Shown here piece after piece: positions 1 through 11,176 of a stretch of DNA of 64,000 nt. The DNA comes from Flavobacteriia bacterium (GTDB taxonomy: Bacteria; Bacteroidota; Bacteroidia; Flavobacteriales_D; Crocinitomicaceae), in NCBI GenBank assembly GCA_947446925.1, contig CANFHU010000001.1, positions 1 through 64,000 of the forward strand, read 5' to 3'. The notes below the pieces were generated by a model, which saw nothing but the letters and a program-made list of their open reading frames with translations, had not been told where the DNA came from and ran no database searches. The translations under genes and the position numbers were made by a program. Each line of letters begins with the position of its first letter. Position 1 is the stretch's first letter.

Positions 1-150
1 TTCTTTGTGAACAAAGTTGAAATCATAGTGCGCTTTGTGAAGATACCTTGGTGCACTTTGTGTTAAAATATGAAATCAATTAACACAGAGCCCTCAATGG
101 CACAGAGATTCACAAAGGTTAATTAATTTGTCACGGAGATACTTTGCTTT
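1..150 (+). repeat. left copies of a direct-repeat pair flanking the GxxExxY gene
   Basis: Two repeat modules lie here. Module A (1-66) recurs at 687-752 in the same orientation with about 61 of 66 bases identical. Module B (about 69-150) recurs more loosely at 609-690. Both are built from degenerate words such as CACAGAG, CACAAAG and CTTTGTG. The order is A-B, gene, B-A. No reading frame of note lies in 1-240. Confidence 0.85.
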
Positions 151-240
151 TTATGTTTAAAGATAATATTTCTTCAAAAAATTTAGGATGAAGTCATCCA
201 TTTGACTAATTTAAATAAGAAAATTTAAAAATACAAGATC

Positions 241-5503: not shown

Positions 5504-5590
5504 ATGCATTATATCGCATACTTTATGGTAAATTCATTGGATAACAAAAAAAAAAAACACAACTTTGTGACCAAATATTTCTTGCTCCAA

Positions 5591-5977
5591 ATGAAAGTAA
5601 GCATACTTTTTATATTTTTTGTAGTTCTTGCGCCTGTTTTCTCTAGTAAAGCAAGCGATTTCATGGATACGTTGAGTTACAATTATTTTACTCCAAATGG
5701 TGATTCTATTAATGATTCTTATTTTATAGAAAATTTAGATAGTTACCGCGACAACAAATTTTCTGTTTTTAATCGTTGGGGGGATTTAGTTTTTTATGCT
5801 TCGCCATATTCTAATAATCCAAATGATGGGGAGAACAAAACATTTGTAGGATTATGCAATCAATCCCTTTGCATTTTCGGGAAAGAGTTACCAGAAGGTG
5901 CTTATTTCTATCAATTTGAATATAAATTTGAGGACAAGCCAACCTATATTAATGGAAAAATAATTTTGAAACGATGA
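5591..5977 (+). CDS. minimal T9SS type B sorting-domain protein (gliding motility-associated C-terminal domain)
   Basis: A 128-residue exported protein: signal peptide about 1-22, roughly nine linker residues, then a type B (CHU_C/gliding-associated) C-terminal domain filling residues 32-128. Signatures are YFTPNGDSIND, FSVFNRWGDLVF, LPEGAYFYQF and the terminal NGKIILKR. Almost no cargo precedes the sorting domain, which is unusual because such domains normally end long adhesins. Two cysteines (C89, C94) sit where the family usually has a W-x-G turn. The stop overlaps the start of the porP/sprF gene by 4 bp, the classic type B cargo/SprF arrangement. The ATG at 5591 is chosen because it begins the signal peptide. 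Confidence 0.88.
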   Translation: MKVSILFIFFVVLAPVFSSKASDFMDTLSYNYFTPNGDSINDSYFIENLDSYRDNKFSVFNRWGDLVFYASPYSNNPNDGENKTFVGLCNQSLCIFGKELPEGAYFYQFEYKFEDKPTYINGKIILKR

Positions 5978-7002
5978 GGTTTTTTAGTGTCGTATTTTTT
6001 CTATTCTTGAGTTTGATAGGTTTTTCTCAAACCCGTCAGTTCTATAATCAATATATGTTAAATCCAGGATTTTTGAATCCTGCAAATATGGATGTATTTA
6101 CGAAATATGGTACGGTATTCCTGTCTCATTACGATTATACGAGTCAAGACAATTCAGCAACAAATTTTGCTGTAGTTTCGCATTACAATTACCGTCCACA
6201 TTTAGGATTTTCTGGTTTTGCCGTAAATGATAACTTTAGTGGGTACAATCAAATGGAAGTTGCTGGGAATGTGGCTTACAAACATTTTACTCGTAGTAAT
6301 GGTGGGATGTCTTTTTCCTACGGATTACGTTTAGGATTTACACAAAACACATTGAATGCAACTAATTTATATTACAAACAATTAGACGATCCTACACTAA
6401 CACAACCTGGAATTAATAAATTTGGGCTGAATTTAGGTTTTGGATTTGCCATGGTAACGCCAGATTTTGATTTAAACGTTAGTCTTCCAGGACTAATGGG
6501 TAACAGACTTCCAACGTCTGCAATCGATACTAGAAAACACAGTATTTTAGATTTAAGAAGTAATAATTTATTTATTTCTACTGGCTATAAATTTAGATGG
6601 GATAATGGATTCTATGTATTTTACCCAACTTTATCGTTACGTAGTATTGTTGGTGCACCATTGAATGTGAGTGCAGATATGAACTTTTTATTAAACCAAT
6701 TAATCTGGTTAGGCGCTGGTTATAGAACTGATAATACGATTGTAGCAAGTGCAGGTGTATTTTTAGATTTAGGTTGGAGATTTGTGTATACTTATAATAA
6801 TGCTGCACTTACGAAGCACTTTAATACTGGATCAAACCATGAGTTGTCTATCGGTTATGCACGAACAATTCCTGAGAATCCATTTTCGTATCGTAAATTC
6901 ACGAAAAGTAATGGAGAAACTAAAAAGAAGAAAACTATTAAAATTAACCTTCCTAAAATTAAGATATTCAAGAAAATGAAGGGAAGATTGAAATATGATT
7001 AA
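5974..7002 (+). CDS. type IX secretion system outer-membrane protein, PorP/SprF family
   Basis: A 342-residue PorP/SprF protein. A signal peptide (1-18, ending GFSQ) is followed by the family opener TRQFYNQYMLNPGFLNPA and a beta barrel rich in alternating aromatics. The C-terminus is a basic tail (SNGETKKKKTIKI...). SprF-type proteins help secrete or anchor T9SS cargo with type B domains. Translational coupling (ATGA overlap) to the tiny type B domain protein supports a dedicated pair. The basic tail after the last strand is longer than I would expect and may face the periplasm. Confidence 0.93.
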   Translation: MRFFSVVFFLFLSLIGFSQTRQFYNQYMLNPGFLNPANMDVFTKYGTVFLSHYDYTSQDNSATNFAVVSHYNYRPHLGFSGFAVNDNFSGYNQMEVAGNVAYKHFTRSNGGMSFSYGLRLGFTQNTLNATNLYYKQLDDPTLTQPGINKFGLNLGFGFAMVTPDFDLNVSLPGLMGNRLPTSAIDTRKHSILDLRSNNLFISTGYKFRWDNGFYVFYPTLSLRSIVGAPLNVSADMNFLLNQLIWLGAGYRTDNTIVASAGVFLDLGWRFVYTYNNAALTKHFNTGSNHELSIGYARTIPENPFSYRKFTKSNGETKKKKTIKINLPKIKIFKKMKGRLKYD

Positions 7003-7019
7003 GCAATAAAATAGTACAT

Positions 7020-7058
7020 TAAAAATAGGGGCAAAATTATTTGTCCCTATTTTTTTTA
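7020..7058. terminator. bidirectional terminator between porP/sprF and the EamA gene
   Basis: Stem AAAAATAGGGGCAAA / TTTGTCCCTATTTTT with a short AT loop, with T-runs on both strands. It overlaps the last codons of the convergent EamA gene. Confidence 0.8.
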
Positions 7059-7966
7059 CCATAATATGCTGTAATCCAAACTCCCGTAAAAATCATTACC
7101 ATATACCCTATTTTCTCCAAAGTGATTGTATTGGTGTAATCATCTGCTATGCCTACTAATGAAAAAAGATATGCAAAACCCATAACTAAAACAGGTTGGG
7201 TGTATATATAAGCACTAGCAATCGACGGGCCTACATACTTAAGTCCATACATGGTCAATAAATAGGTAAAAAAAGTAACGCCAATAACGATGTATGTGAT
7301 TTTAGCCCAGATAATAGGATGTATAGCACTAAAGTCAATTTGCACGATATCGATGTATGTTGGGGGATAAATTAACATATAAAAAAATCCAAAAGTAAAT
7401 ACATAAGTAATCACGGTAAACGGACTATATCGTTGCATTAAAGGTTTTGCAATTACTAAATAAACGGCATAACTAGCTGCGTTTATAAACAAAAACAAAT
7501 CTCCTAATGTTGAATCCCCTTTCCCTGTATTTCCTGCTAAGGACAATAAAATAGCACCTGTTGCACCTAATACAATACCCGTGACTTTCGTTGCAGTAAT
7601 TTTTTCCTTTAAAAGAAAATAAGCGATGATGGTTACTAATATAGGATTAGTAGTCATGATAATTCCCGAATTTATCGAAGAAGATAAACTCAAGCCATGA
7701 AAGAAAAAGAGTTGATTGATGGTAACACCAAACAAAGCGCATAACATAAATAGCCCTATGTCTTTGCGTTGTATACGTTCTTTTGGCAGAAATGCTTTAA
7801 TCAACCAAAAAAGCAACGTAGCACCTAAAATTCGAAAGAAAATAAAAGTGGTAGGCGTTAAAAAAGCTGGCATAACCCCTTTTGCAAGGATATGACCAGC
7901 TCCGTATAACATATTTACTAATAATAAGGCAAGATGCGCCCTCCAAATAGAATGTTTCAATGGCAT
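7037..7966 (-). CDS. EamA/DMT-family transporter
   Basis: A 309-residue integral membrane protein with about ten hydrophobic helices in two EamA repeats (about 10-140 and 155-300), as in drug/metabolite exporters. Motifs include FIFFRILGATLLFWLIKAF in the first repeat and GPSIASAYIYTQPVLVMGFAY in the second. The substrate cannot be told from sequence. Its ATG overlaps the YceI stop by one base (TAATG on the minus strand), so it is very likely translated from the YceI/b561 transcript. It converges with porP/sprF. Confidence 0.92.
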   Translation of the reverse strand: MPLKHSIWRAHLALLLVNMLYGAGHILAKGVMPAFLTPTTFIFFRILGATLLFWLIKAFLPKERIQRKDIGLFMLCALFGVTINQLFFFHGLSLSSSINSGIIMTTNPILVTIIAYFLLKEKITATKVTGIVLGATGAILLSLAGNTGKGDSTLGDLFLFINAASYAVYLVIAKPLMQRYSPFTVITYVFTFGFFYMLIYPPTYIDIVQIDFSAIHPIIWAKITYIVIGVTFFTYLLTMYGLKYVGPSIASAYIYTQPVLVMGFAYLFSLVGIADDYTNTITLEKIGYMVMIFTGVWITAYYGKKNRDK

Positions 7967-8511
7967 TAAATATCAAAAACAGTTTTAAAATCCATTACCA
8001 AATTATCATCTACAGATACACCCACCATGGATGGTTTTTCTACTTTGAATTTATCCAAACTCACATTAAAAGAACCAGATAACGTGATTTTTTTGTCCGA
8101 TGCTATTTGTTTGGCTTTGATAGTTATATCTTTTTTGATACCATGGAACGTTAATTCACCTACGATGGTAACATCTCCAGCTTCTTCTTTAATTGCTTTA
8201 CTTACAAAAGTTACTTTTGGGTATTTAGTACCTTCTAATACTTCTAAGGCATGAGAATCACGACTAGAGTTTTGAGAATCAAAGGAAGCTACAGCTGCTG
8301 CTACAACCAGTTTCGTTATTTGTTTAGTTGTATTGTCATAATACCCACCACAAATAAAATCTTTGGTGGTTCCAATGGATTTATGCGCTGGATGATCTAG
8401 CGTGTAACGAATAAAAGAATCCGTTTTGTTAAGTGTTAATTTAACACTATCGAAGGAACACAACACAAAAGTTAGTCCAAGAAAAAGAGAATAAATGATT
8501 GATTTTTTCAT
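7966..8511 (-). CDS. YceI family protein
   Basis: A 181-residue exported protein with an N-terminal signal sequence (about 1-19) and a YceI lipocalin-like barrel. Conserved pieces are SFIRYTLDHPAHKSIG, ASFDSQNSSRDSHALEVL, YPKVTFVSKAI and GELTFHGIKKDITI. Family members bind polyisoprenoid or amphiphilic lipids in the periplasm, and E. coli yceI neighbours a cytochrome b561 gene (yceJ). The same pairing appears here: the cytochrome b561-like gene lies 25 bp upstream on the same strand. A role in quinone/isoprenoid handling for that membrane protein is inference. Confidence 0.92.
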   Translation of the reverse strand: MKKSIIYSLFLGLTFVLCSFDSVKLTLNKTDSFIRYTLDHPAHKSIGTTKDFICGGYYDNTTKQITKLVVAAAVASFDSQNSSRDSHALEVLEGTKYPKVTFVSKAIKEEAGDVTIVGELTFHGIKKDITIKAKQIASDKKITLSGSFNVSLDKFKVEKPSMVGVSVDDNLVMDFKTVFDI

Positions 8512-8536
8512 GCGAATTTAAATTTATTGGTTAAGA

Positions 8537-9241
8537 TTAAAATTTCATTACAATTACCGCGCCTGCAAATAAAGCAGTAGTTATGTAACCAGATACTTGG
8601 TGAAAGTTACGTAATTTATCACTAGCGTCATTTTTAAGACTAACACTACCATACATCAATTGACCTGCAATTGGTGTAAGTACCATTCCAGAAAAATGTA
8701 AATATGCAAGGGTACGATGCGCTTTCATATTACTCCATCCTTTATTTTTACGAATTATGACTGGAGGTGGAGCTAACAATTGTAATAACGCTGTTGCTCC
8801 ATAAGCTACCATTGTGGTTGTAATTGCAGTTTTATGAAGTGATTTAACAAATTCTTGTGTATCTCCATTTCTAGTATTAATCATTATCTGACCCGTAATA
8901 CACGATCCAACCATTCCGCCTAAAGCAACAAATCCTAGTGCTTGATGTGTTTGAAGCATTCGTCTACGTACAATTAATTCGCGTTCCCGTTTTTCTGTAG
9001 TTAACTCAAAATAGTTAAACTTACGCATTGCACCTTTTTCACCCCATAAGGAACGGCGAATAAGTCCCATTCCCTCTGGTAATAAACTTTGTTGGATATC
9101 ATTTGCGCCTAATTCTTGCAGTAATAGATAATCCTCCGAAATTTTTGTTGTGTCTTGGATTGATTTTGTAGAATCCGTTTGGGCATTTATATGTTGTAAA
9201 AATAGCAAACATAAAACGCTTAAAAAAAGTAGTTTTTTCAT
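8537..9241 (-). CDS. cytochrome b561-like four-helix membrane protein
   Basis: A 234-residue protein with a signal peptide (1-20), a soluble segment (about 21-95) and four predicted helices (about 99-120, 137-158, 182-199, 213-232). Histidines stand at the start of every helix: H99, H136, H175/H182 and H213. Because helices alternate direction, H99 with H175/H182 and H136 with H213 would meet at opposite faces, the two-heme layout of cytochrome b561. It should pass electrons across or within a membrane. It precedes yceI by 25 bp. A near-consensus promoter (TACTTTTA, minus strand, 9253-9260) sits just upstream. Heme binding is predicted, not shown. Confidence 0.8.
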   Translation of the reverse strand: MKKLLFLSVLCLLFLQHINAQTDSTKSIQDTTKISEDYLLLQELGANDIQQSLLPEGMGLIRRSLWGEKGAMRKFNYFELTTEKRERELIVRRRMLQTHQALGFVALGGMVGSCITGQIMINTRNGDTQEFVKSLHKTAITTTMVAYGATALLQLLAPPPVIIRKNKGWSNMKAHRTLAYLHFSGMVLTPIAGQLMYGSVSLKNDASDKLRNFHQVSGYITTALFAGAVIVMKF

Positions 9242-9314
9242 TCTTTTTTAGTTAAAAGTAGTTTAATATTCAATAAAAAAGTCTCTTTTTAAATTGGATA
9301 AAAAAATATATTTT

Positions 9315-9334
9315 ATCGCTTTTCCTAAAGCGAT
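9315..9334 (-). terminator. hairpin between the ankyrin and b561-like genes
   Basis: Stem ATCGCTTT / AAAGCGAT with a four-base loop, followed on the minus strand by an A/T-rich stretch including a run of seven T. It may terminate or attenuate transcription from the DOMON-ankyrin part. The rest of 9242-9348 holds only the likely b561 promoter. Confidence 0.5.
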
Positions 9335-9348
9335 TGATTACTAAATGC

Positions 9349-9867
9349 TTATTTAATTATTAATTGTTTAATTACTAAATTATCACACTCTCTTGCGTAC
9401 TCCATTACCGATTTATTTGCATTATCCATGGCATTTATATCTGCTTTGTTTGCAAGTAATAATTTAACTATTTCTTCATTTTCAGCCATTATTGCAAACA
9501 TTAGTGGGGTAGTTCCAGCATTGTTTTTAACATTTATATCCGCATGGTGTTTCAAAAGGATTTTAACTAGTTCGACATTTGACTTATAACAAGCAGCTGT
9601 CAATACTGTTCCATCCTCTGATAGCGCATTCACATTCGCTCCTAATTCTAGTAGCACTTTTACTGCATCTAATTGATTTCTATAACCAGCAATTAGTAAA
9701 GGTGTGTAACCACTGTTATTTGGCGTATTGATTGTGTCCGGATTTAATTTTGATAATTGTTTTATTAACTCCACGTTGCCTTTTCTACACGCATCGTAAA
9801 TATCTTGCGTTAATCCATCTAAATGAACAAAAGCAACAATAAGAAATAGTACAATTAATTTATACAT
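9349..9867 (-). CDS. exported ankyrin-repeat protein
   Basis: A 172-residue protein with a signal peptide (about 1-20) and four to five ankyrin repeats from residue 22 to the end (NNSGYTPLLIAGYRNQLDAV, ALSEDGTVLTAACY, NNAGTTPLMFAIMAENEEIV). Ankyrin repeats are protein-binding scaffolds. In the periplasm this one probably acts as an adaptor or chaperone. It starts 10 bp after the DOMON-protein stop, so the two are probably one transcript. A partner role for the DOMON or b561-like protein is inference from neighbourhood. Confidence 0.85.
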   Translation of the reverse strand: MYKLIVLFLIVAFVHLDGLTQDIYDACRKGNVELIKQLSKLNPDTINTPNNSGYTPLLIAGYRNQLDAVKVLLELGANVNALSEDGTVLTAACYKSNVELVKILLKHHADINVKNNAGTTPLMFAIMAENEEIVKLLLANKADINAMDNANKSVMEYARECDNLVIKQLIIK

Positions 9868-9877
9868 CTAAAAGTGA

Positions 9878-11014
9878 TTATTGTACCACAAATTTTCGTT
9901 GTACGAATTTACCATTACTCCCAAAAGTTAAAATATAAACGCCTGGTTTAAATTCCGAATGTTGTATGGTTAATTCTCCTTGTGCTTTATTTTTTTCTTT
10001 GATTATATTTCCTTGTAAATCTGAAATTTGATAGTTGTAATCCGCATCATTTACAGAAAAAATAATAGATGAATTGGTAAATTGGATGTATTGTTTATCG
10101 GAAATTTCAAGAATACCCGCAGATACTTGGGCTGGTGCAGTCGTAAAATTCCATTCTGTTGGAGTAGAAATCCCTGTGAAAAAATTGCCTGCAATGTCTC
10201 TAATCGCCGTAGCAGAAAGAAGCAAATAATAATCGCTTGAATCACTAAGAGTATTTGTTGGATTAATTATAATTGTAGCTCCATTTACCGTCACATTTGA
10301 ACTTGGTAAATTATAAGCTTCAAAAACTGAGTTATTTGAAGAATAAAGTGTAATCGTTCCTGTTCCTATTGCTACATTTTCACTAAATGTTGCTGTTAGA
10401 TTTTGAGTAGTTGATATTCCTGATGAATTATCTGCTGGTGATACAGAAGTTAAGGTTGGTGGCGTTACATCTGGAACAGCCCAAGCCAAAGATATTCCAT
10501 ATGCTCTATTAGATCCTCCATGATCTTTCAAAACATAGGATGCAGTTAAACCTCTACCCCATATCAGATTAATAGATGCTGCGTTATAATTTATTACTGC
10601 ATCCTTCGCGTCTCCCGTATTTAATTTTCGAGAAGCGACTAATGTTCTCAATGAACCTGAAACGGTATTGGATTTTATTTTCCAATCTTGTTGGGCATCT
10701 TTAACAACCGAACTACTACTCGTACTTCCCATAAAATAATCCCACCAATCTTGCGTCCCACCAGAAGAGGTATAAATTAATGCATCCGAACCACCCATAA
10801 ACGATCCAAATCCAAGTCCAATCCATTTTGAAGAAGGACCCGCAAATGTAATTGTGATGGAATCGGGTGTAATGGAAGCACCAAAAAACATTCCTGAACC
10901 CGTTGAGGCACCTGAAGCAGATTTTAATTCTTGGTAAGCAATAGTTTTAGTTTGCGCTTGCGAAAAAAATGTTCCAAGCAACAATGAAAAACTTACAATT
11001 AATTTTTTTTTCAT
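9878..11014 (-). CDS. secreted DOMON-domain protein with Ig-like domain and T9SS type A tail
   Basis: A 378-residue exported protein. Signal peptide 1-20; DOMON domain about 24-180; SbsA-type Ig-like domain about 184-292 (begins PPTLTSVSPADNSSGIS); type A T9SS sorting domain about 300-378, ending GVYILTFGSNGKFVQRKFVV. The DOMON part has WIGLGFGSFMGGSDALIY and LKDHGGSNRAYGISL, placing Met73 and His165 where heme-binding DOMON proteins (cellobiose dehydrogenase cytochrome domain, plant AIR12) carry their axial ligands. It is therefore a likely cell-surface b-type cytochrome. It is first in a minus-strand cluster with ankyrin, b561-like and YceI genes. A Fur/Irr-like palindrome lies upstream at 11162-11176. 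Confidence 0.82.
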   Translation of the reverse strand: MKKKLIVSFSLLLGTFFSQAQTKTIAYQELKSASGASTGSGMFFGASITPDSITITFAGPSSKWIGLGFGSFMGGSDALIYTSSGGTQDWWDYFMGSTSSSSVVKDAQQDWKIKSNTVSGSLRTLVASRKLNTGDAKDAVINYNAASINLIWGRGLTASYVLKDHGGSNRAYGISLAWAVPDVTPPTLTSVSPADNSSGISTTQNLTATFSENVAIGTGTITLYSSNNSVFEAYNLPSSNVTVNGATIIINPTNTLSDSSDYYLLLSATAIRDIAGNFFTGISTPTEWNFTTAPAQVSAGILEISDKQYIQFTNSSIIFSVNDADYNYQISDLQGNIIKEKNKAQGELTIQHSEFKPGVYILTFGSNGKFVQRKFVVQ

Positions 11015-11161
11015 TTAAATACATGTTAAGTTATTGGAGAAAAAATGTTAAAAATTTAAAAATTAATAGATTATAATTTCAATCGTCGATTTTCATTTTT
11101 CTCCCGCTTTTTAGACGTAAACTTACACATGTCGTTGCTTATTATTTACCATGTAAACTAA

Positions 11162-11176
11162 TTTAGAATCATTCTA
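11162..11176. promoter_or_regulatory. Fur/Irr-like palindrome upstream of the DOMON gene
   Basis: TTTAGAATCATTCTA matches 14 of the first 15 bases of the 17-bp palindrome at 19621-19637 in front of a TonB receptor, differing only at the central base. It lies 148 bp upstream of the DOMON start and 5 bp past the metG stop. A near-consensus -7 box (TAAGTTTA, minus strand, 11118-11125) lies between. Operator function is inference. Confidence 0.4.

Follow-up and report, generated by a model that had tools for sequence, protein, structure and literature searches.

Two conserved gene pairs, DOMON–ankyrin and b561-like–YceI, adjoin in a flavobacterial locus and may form an envelope redox module

Do bacteria possess a counterpart, split over separate proteins, of the eukaryotic proteins that unite a DOMON domain with a cytochrome b561 core? 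The question is raised by a locus within a stretch of 64,000 nucleotides (the window) of contig CANFHU010000001.1 from a freshwater bacterium of the Flavobacteriia, where five genes on the minus strand are transcribed in the order DOMON protein (with an Ig-like domain and a type 9 secretion system, T9SS, tail), ankyrin protein, four-helix protein, YceI protein and EamA transporter. The DOMON and ankyrin genes are separated by 10 bp, the ankyrin and four-helix genes by 107 bp, and the four-helix and YceI genes by 25 bp, whereas YceI and EamA overlap by one base (table 1). An earlier note on the window had given these positions, the strand and the 10-bp, 25-bp and one-base spacings correctly, and had proposed that the genes encode an electron path from the cell surface to the membrane. 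Comparison with relatives of the bacterium shows that the solid finding here is two conserved pairs, DOMON–ankyrin and b561-like–YceI, and not a string of four genes.

The DOMON protein and its ankyrin partner

The DOMON protein of the window matches the Pfam family PF03351 with 41.6 bits (cut-off 32.7) and the T9SS type A sorting domain TIGR04183 with 33.7 bits (cut-off 23), and its Ig-like domain matches Big_5, as had been expected from the letters. We gathered homologues within the genus and in draws of 198 genomes of the phylum and 396 genomes of the class, which may overlap; they are rare, being found at E ≤ 0.001 in 7/198 and 26/396 genomes, respectively (own genome counted). Among 26 aligned DOMON domains the only invariant columns are Gly59, Met73 and His165. 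The last two are the residues singled out beforehand as sitting in heme-ligand positions, and since both are among just three invariant columns, a chance origin of the pattern was rejected. The T9SS tail scores above the cut-off in seven of ten other DOMON proteins tested, the remaining three reaching 20.1–22.9 bits, and the Ig-like part varies in number from none (locus L011) through one (window) to several (L014). Searched against plasmids, the window protein matched 10 records, mainly through its Ig-like part.

The predicted structure of the DOMON domain (pLDDT 90.4) has the fold of the cellobiose dehydrogenase cytochrome: Foldseek retrieves chains of that cytochrome with E values from 1.4e-4 (4qi3) to 7.7e-3 (4qi7_B), and the VIA Z scores against its domains are 11.2–11.8 across 139–148 residues. 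Other matches are dopamine beta-hydroxylase (Z 15.9), the gamma subunit of ethylbenzene dehydrogenase (11.5), pyranose dehydrogenase (11.2), and nitrite oxidoreductase (10.9), and the score falls to 6.5 with the next kind of match, a sugar-binding module. Residues 24..182 of the model align onto 14..180 of 1d7c and onto 16..194 of 4qi3, ranges consistent with Met73 corresponding to Met65, and His165 to His163/His176, of the cellobiose dehydrogenase cytochrome structures. Met65 is named in the title of structure 1pl3 and His163 is presumably the ligand position that answers to His165; His176 appears in PMC10784544. By sequence, a DOMON profile found no match among solved structures at E ≤ 10, and a genus profile of the whole protein found only five (E 0.24–0.95), the best of them through the T9SS tail. 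The protein is probably a heme-type DOMON cytochrome that is exported to the cell surface via T9SS and presumably holds its heme there.

An ankyrin gene lies directly beside the DOMON gene in 19/19 loci outside the genus with matches at E<1e-30 (all such loci of the class draw were fetched), which span seven genera of four families with the ankyrin gene preceding DOMON in part of them and following it in the rest, as well as in 8/8 loci within the genus. The partnership that the earlier note had read from a single locus is thus general among strong matches. The set includes L143, whose DOMON gene was confirmed via its translation and a six-frame search, and it does not include three weak DOMON matches (genomes G658, G958, and G357) or L104, which has no clear DOMON gene among the open reading frames read. 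Weak or divergent DOMON genes (L099, L147, L148, and L149) have no ankyrin neighbor. In L136:6435-8640 two consecutive DOMON genes stand behind one ankyrin gene.

Alignment of 27 DOMON-linked ankyrins revealed Arg28, Gly30, Ala60, Tyr62, Gly86, and Ala125 to be invariant, with Arg28 and Tyr62 occupying the equivalent place in successive repeats, as read from the sequence. The window protein is probably periplasmic, since it starts with a signal peptide (by eye); the catalase ankyrin AnkB is reportedly periplasmic as well, according to the title of a study. A plasmid search with the ankyrin matched 233 records, of which 7 were opened, chosen from 40 listed and partly in the expectation of catalase neighbors, so that the four catalase-linked cases among the seven give no frequency. 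Three of these four have the ankyrin gene immediately behind that of the catalase, and in L175 a ferritin-like gene separates the two. An equivalent of Tyr62 is present in 4/4 catalase-linked ankyrins and one of Arg28 in 3/4. In passages of PMC7567364 and PMC11442138, catalase activity is reported to need ankyrin proteins in two species, AnkB being one of these proteins; the latter source also reports that Cj1386 binds heme via Tyr57 and describes heme trafficking, and the former an ank-katE operon in Leptospira. Tyr62 may correspond to Tyr57 of Cj1386. The tyrosine common to DOMON-linked and the four catalase-linked ankyrins suggests, by analogy, that the ankyrin protein acts as a heme-loading chaperone of the DOMON protein. 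Three observations weigh against this role: a Tyr62 equivalent is also found in one of three plasmid ankyrins without a catalase neighbor, the catalase-linked proteins of L176 and L179, two of the four, are almost the same, and PMC11442138 lists Cj1386 as cytoplasmic.

Four of the 19 loci (L102, L103, L145, and L146) carry YceI, CxxCH lipoprotein-like and DUF5777 barrel genes near the DOMON–ankyrin pair, with DUF5777 confirmed by Pfam in all four and the YceI and CxxCH genes of L146 on the other strand; this arrangement resembles a further redox cluster with DOMON–ankyrin as its basis. In L102 and L103, a gene for a Crp-type regulator stands ahead of the DUF5777/CxxCH/YceI/ankyrin/DOMON cluster. 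A membrane protein beside DOMON–ankyrin in L138 and L139, with weak likeness to DUF2306, was considered as another b-type partner and rejected: it misses the b561-like profile, and the same position holds a different gene in L140 and L141.

The b561-like protein, YceI and their redox neighbors

Within the order, the window four-helix protein and a genus profile find relatives in the genus only (10/59 relatives, 5/245, own genome counted in both). In a draw across the phylum, 35/392 genomes match at E ≤ 0.01. From these genomes we assembled 31 full-length genes outside the genus, in 29 genomes besides the own one and 17 genera, leaving out five weak partial matches (G398, G452, G581, G291, and G522). 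YceI is encoded directly downstream of the b561-like gene in 10/10 loci of the genus (window included) and in 30/31 outside it, which bears out YceI as its partner. The b561-like protein of the sole locus without YceI (L077) lacks both His136 and His214.

The window protein reaches only 20.1 bits with PF01292, below the cut-off of 30.1. Among 39 family members, however, nine match the eukaryotic cytochrome b561 family PF03188 and five, the window protein included, match PF01292 (E ≤ 1e-3), and the member from L081 exceeds the PF03188 cut-off (24.9 bits against 23). It is because of these matches, and not because of the window protein alone or its fold, that we place the four-helix protein on sequence grounds in a family of the phylum that is of remote cytochrome b561 type, as the earlier note had supposed. 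The fold does not separate it from other proteins: the four-helix model fits b561 structures (4o6y Z 8.6; b561, Dcytb, and STEAP1 Z 8.2–8.6) no better than unrelated bundles, with which it is tied. Foldseek gave no match to this model below E 0.29, mostly ferritins; the wide b561-like profile matched no solved structure at E ≤ 10, the genus profile only a light-harvesting chain (E 0.66), and profile comparison of Escherichia coli YceJ with the family gave a weak probability of 3.6.

One histidine stands at the start of each hydrophobic helix, at positions 99, 136, 175, and 214, as had been noted except that the fourth is His214 and not 213, and that an additional, invariant His182 had been overlooked. 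Conservation in the 39 members is complete for His99, His175, and His182 (39/39 each), followed by His214 (38/39) and His136 (33/39); a chance pattern of four histidines was rejected for His99, His175, and His214, and less firmly for His136. In the five proteins with lysine in place of His136 (L061, L065, L066, L074, and L075), the lysine could still ligate heme, or one heme could be lost.

The pairing of these histidines across the membrane is harder to read. Aligned without gaps from their histidines, helices 1 and 3 are identical at 9/24 positions in the window protein, and their family score of 27.2 compares with a shuffled mean of −19.8 (s.d. 6.9), is reached by 0/20000 shuffles and has no rival above −4.7 in any other register. 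This likeness agrees with a pairing of the first histidine with the third, but several observations weaken the case for a b561 core with paired ligands. Helices 1 and 4 score 22.2, likewise reached by 0/20000 shuffles, and the scores of the remaining pairs are reached by few (9 for 2/4, 28 for 1/2, 37 for 2/3, and 52 for 3/4, each of 20000); as all helix pairs are alike, this supports a repeated helix unit rather than a pairing of 1 with 3 and 2 with 4. His136 is lost in 6/39 members, to lysine in five and glutamine in one, and the structural scores given above are tied with those of unrelated bundles. Finally, the signal-peptide-like start of the protein would place His99 and His175 outside, but positive charges before helix 1 and in the loop between helices 2 and 3 argue for the opposite side.

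Outside the genus, the b561-like–YceI pair usually has a further redox neighbor. A Rieske protein adjoins it in 26/31 loci according to home-made profiles, and Pfam confirmed the assignments in all loci tested (Rieske 8/8, YceI 4/4). In 13 aligned Rieske proteins the C-x-H and C-x-x-H motifs are invariant, and Cys25 fits a lipobox. Within the genus, where DOMON might have taken over from a lost Rieske partner, Rieske-like genes occur elsewhere in 10/13 genomes. Next to the Rieske gene, three loci (L069, L070, and L072) encode a protein with a Reeler domain (PF02014, 26.1–30.6 bits, cut-off 21), a CxxCH motif and a T9SS tail, and L078 a related CxxCH protein whose T9SS tail is below the cut-off and which has no Reeler match. 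Five loci of genus g116 (L085, L087, L088, L089, and L090) have a Fec-like set ahead of Rieske–b561–YceI, comprising a receptor-like protein of 927–932 amino acids (aa; one cluster) in 5/5 loci, a FecR-type protein in four and an extracytoplasmic function (ECF) sigma factor in three. These assignments were made by sequence cluster, with Pfam run on three L087 genes and on the L085 receptor-like protein; both receptor-like proteins tested (L085 and L087) have STN and plug domains above cut-off. Upstream of the Rieske gene in L067 and L076 are genes for an unknown protein and for an ECF sigma-type protein, the latter examined with Pfam in L067. Within the genus of the window, L017:8863-9363 holds a lipoprotein-like gene with two CxxCH-type motifs in place of DOMON–ankyrin ahead of the b561-like gene; its product matches no Pfam family above cut-off.

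One module or two neighboring units

A check on neighborhood conservation, proposed in advance as a possible refutation, did not refute the proposal: both pairs are conserved beyond the genus. The junction of DOMON–ankyrin with b561-like–YceI is seen in one genus only. There, the four genes follow one another without interruption in the window and in L011, L012, L014, and L016. Further assemblies stop within the junction, the contigs of G001 and G009 ending ~90–110 bases past the ankyrin gene and others ~30–45 bases short of the b561-like gene, the pattern that an assembly break in the gap would leave. Among 13 genomes of the genus, DOMON is found in 8/10 with the b561-like gene and in 0/3 without it, a soft count given that the genomes are incomplete (59–100%). 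Two genus contigs from metagenome-assembled genomes (L023 and L031) bear the names Chryseobacterium gleum and Chitinophaga pinensis in their titles, a labeling made doubtful by the gene order they share with the genus.

Set against a single system are the following points. G002 (59% complete) and G003 (84%) have the b561-like gene without a DOMON match, and of the three genomes without either gene, two are 80 and 85% complete. The flanking genes PaaZ, MetG, PorP, and bshC keep their order equally well in the genus, so the junction may reflect shared ancestry alone. In G006 the pairs lie on separate contigs, and a lipoprotein-like gene with CxxCH motifs neighbors the b561-like one; L018 and L019, which branch deeper in the genus, have a different gene (Mfd by eye) upstream of the b561-like gene. 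Elsewhere the pairs occur apart: no DOMON match was found in any of the 31 b561-like loci outside the genus, no b561-like match in the DOMON–ankyrin genomes G268, G277, and G311, and 15/19 DOMON–ankyrin loci have no YceI within the fetched stretch. Moreover, a DOMON protein on the surface cannot touch a cytochrome of the inner membrane directly, so that a carrier must be assumed. Taken together, the case for both pairs forming one system is about evenly balanced.

The closest competing explanation takes the locus as two separate and complete units, a surface DOMON–ankyrin and a b561-like–YceI of inner membrane and periplasm, brought side by side on one strand by the chance of history and having no electron path in common. 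It accounts for each pair being found without the other, for their separation in G006 and the Mfd gene of L018 and L019, and for a junction lying in a region of generally high synteny, as well as for the 107-bp gap with a hairpin between the pairs. That hairpin, which had been suggested to divide the locus into two transcripts, does exist in the window, but by eye it is missing from the equivalent gap in the four relatives aligned (L011, L012, L014, and L016) and was rejected as a conserved terminator. Chance adjacency also leaves unexplained that the DOMON gene of the genus is seen only where the b561-like gene is present, that DOMON–ankyrin meets YceI in other families, and that the position held here by DOMON is elsewhere that of a redox neighbor, mostly Rieske. 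We consider two such units a real possibility, if short of probable.

On balance we lean, tentatively, towards an envelope redox module composed of two conserved pairs with a swappable redox partner, in which a working link between DOMON and b561-like proteins is presumed. In this module the histidine pairs 99/175 and 136/214 of an inner-membrane b561-like protein would hold one or two b hemes between them, and the protein would deliver electrons across the membrane to the cargo of periplasmic YceI, an isoprenoid or quinone, as has been proposed for LcoA–BcnA (see below). The one-electron partner would be, in most relatives, the Rieske protein with its lipobox-like cysteine and, in the genus of the window, a T9SS-exported heme b DOMON protein instead; by analogy with the catalase ankyrins Cj1386 and AnkB, the periplasmic ankyrin would load heme into the DOMON protein before its export. 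The likely use would be a protective or scavenging reduction at the envelope, of lipid peroxyl radicals or of an outside acceptor. A wider version, which we regard as speculative and rather doubtful, is that the Bacteroidota possess a modular envelope electron system with a minimal four-helix diheme b561 core and YceI, to which interchangeable partners attach (Rieske, c-type, or a T9SS-exported DOMON with its own ankyrin heme chaperone).

Ferric reduction may be one of several possible uses of such a module. A split reductase for iron or another outside acceptor, similar to CYBDOM or FRRS1 and sending electrons outward from b561 to DOMON to Fe(III), is nevertheless unlikely as an account of the whole locus. 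FRRS1 has the domain order Reeler–DOMON–b561, and Reeler domains with CxxCH likewise stand beside Rieske–b561–YceI in L069, L070, and L072. The Fec-type receptor cluster beside the module in g116 keeps a role in iron open, but this set is seen in one genus only, and Fec-like sets in this phylum also serve other nutrients. The ligand logic matches that of the CYBDOM protein HYP1, as far as described in a part of PMC10784544. Counting against this account, no wire is known to join a DOMON protein on the surface to a b561-like protein of the inner membrane, and none of the 31 b561-like loci searched outside the genus has a DOMON match. It is very improbable that the surface DOMON feeds electrons to a secreted oxidative enzyme acting on polysaccharide, as fungal cellobiose dehydrogenase and Cbp2D do for lytic polysaccharide monooxygenases. 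In favor of this idea, the heme-binding structural relatives of DOMON include cellobiose dehydrogenase cytochrome domains, Cbp2D joins YceI-like and c-type domains and has been studied as a monooxygenase electron donor (a passage of PMC8981238), and L101 has what by eye is an amylase-like gene, three genes ahead of that for the ankyrin. Against it, by eye, with no profile search made, the DOMON–ankyrin neighbors viewed include neither a dehydrogenase nor a copper monooxygenase.

The remaining gene of the string, EamA, adjoins YceI in the window and in 8/9 other loci of the genus (L017 being the exception). A genus-built profile, which remote EamA genes could escape, found no match in the 31 b561-like loci outside the genus, and EamA was accordingly rejected as a module partner. 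Past EamA, the opposite strand encodes a PorP/SprF protein and a protein with a CHU_C tail, both of T9SS kinds; the CHU_C type B tail protein (window 5504-7002) overlaps the PorP/SprF gene by a few bases, an arrangement kept in the genus and likely to represent a T9SS cargo–anchor pair.

Table 1. Coordinates of the features of the locus within the 64,000-nucleotide window
Feature	Coordinates	Strand	Properties
DOMON protein, 378 aa	9878..11014	-	Signal peptide (by eye), heme-type DOMON at ~residues 22-182, one Big_5 Ig-like domain, T9SS type A tail
Ankyrin protein, 172 aa	9349..9867	-	Signal peptide (by eye), ankyrin repeats (Pfam/NCBIfam)
Hairpin	9315..9334	-	Between ankyrin and b561-like genes
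b561-like four-helix protein, 234 aa	8537..9241	-	Signal-peptide-like N-terminus; His99, His136, His175, His182, His214
YceI lipocalin-like protein, 181 aa	7966..8511	-	Signal peptide (by eye); PF04264 61.2 bits, cut-off 23.7
EamA transporter	7037..7966	-	Pfam/NCBIfam match

Relation to known systems

The two pairs tie several poorly understood families to testable partners. We know of no account of how non-covalent b-type heme proteins gain their heme before T9SS export, and the strict DOMON–ankyrin pairing, together with the tyrosine in common with catalase-linked ankyrins, offers a direct test of heme loading at this step. With its extra redox center, the b561-like–YceI–Rieske cluster carries the LcoA–BcnA idea over to another phylum, and it may help to reveal the cargo of YceI and the direction of electron flow. 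If the modular system were true, bacteria would have their own, divided version of the eukaryotic DOMON–b561 proteins, with a surface cytochrome and a dedicated heme loader. Literature searches on DOMON with ankyrin and heme, DOMON in Flavobacterium, YceI with Rieske in Bacteroidetes, and a bacterial DOMON–b561 operon found no such system, nor did broader searches among the titles viewed, although an earlier mention in subscription papers is possible. Within these searches, the claim of a combination not previously described stands; the b561–YceI pairing as such is already known.

LcoA is a cytochrome b561 of the PF01292 family. The pairing itself has already been described in Proteobacteria: according to passages of PMC9113575, bcnA (YceI) and lcoA (b561) are linked in many Gram-negatives and fused in most of the alphaproteobacteria named there, mutants in these genes show more lipid peroxidation, and LcoA is suggested to re-reduce ubiquinone bound to BcnA. 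As in the window, in LcoA–BcnA and in E. coli yceJ–yceI a b561-type gene lies directly upstream of the gene for a secreted YceI, as far as these passages describe it. The available text of PMC9113575 mentions neither Bacteroidetes nor Rieske. The window protein differs from LcoA in scoring below the PF01292 cut-off, in having one histidine at the start of each hydrophobic helix and in its signal-peptide-like N-terminus, and a partner, Rieske or DOMON, accompanies the b561-like–YceI pair here at most loci.

The catalase ankyrins (AnkB, Cj1386, and that of the Leptospira ank-katE operon) resemble the window ankyrin in being encoded by a small gene beside that of a heme protein; their client is a catalase, whereas here it would be a DOMON cytochrome, and heme binding by the window ankyrin is putative. 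The AA8 cytochrome of cellobiose dehydrogenase is alike in fold and in its Met/His ligand positions, as far as the aligned ranges tell, whereas the window protein is bacterial, lacks a dehydrogenase domain and carries a T9SS tail and an Ig-like spacer. A further likeness is to the CYBDOM proteins: in Arabidopsis HYP1, as described in a part of PMC10784544, the DOMON ligands are Met90 and His174, the b561 core has the pairs H211-H278 and H245-H314, first with third and second with fourth, and the protein reduces ferric iron. The window likewise has Met/His DOMON ligands and a b561-like core with four histidines, but what is one polypeptide in CYBDOM is here divided between separate proteins, with a T9SS tail on the DOMON protein and with ankyrin and YceI in addition.

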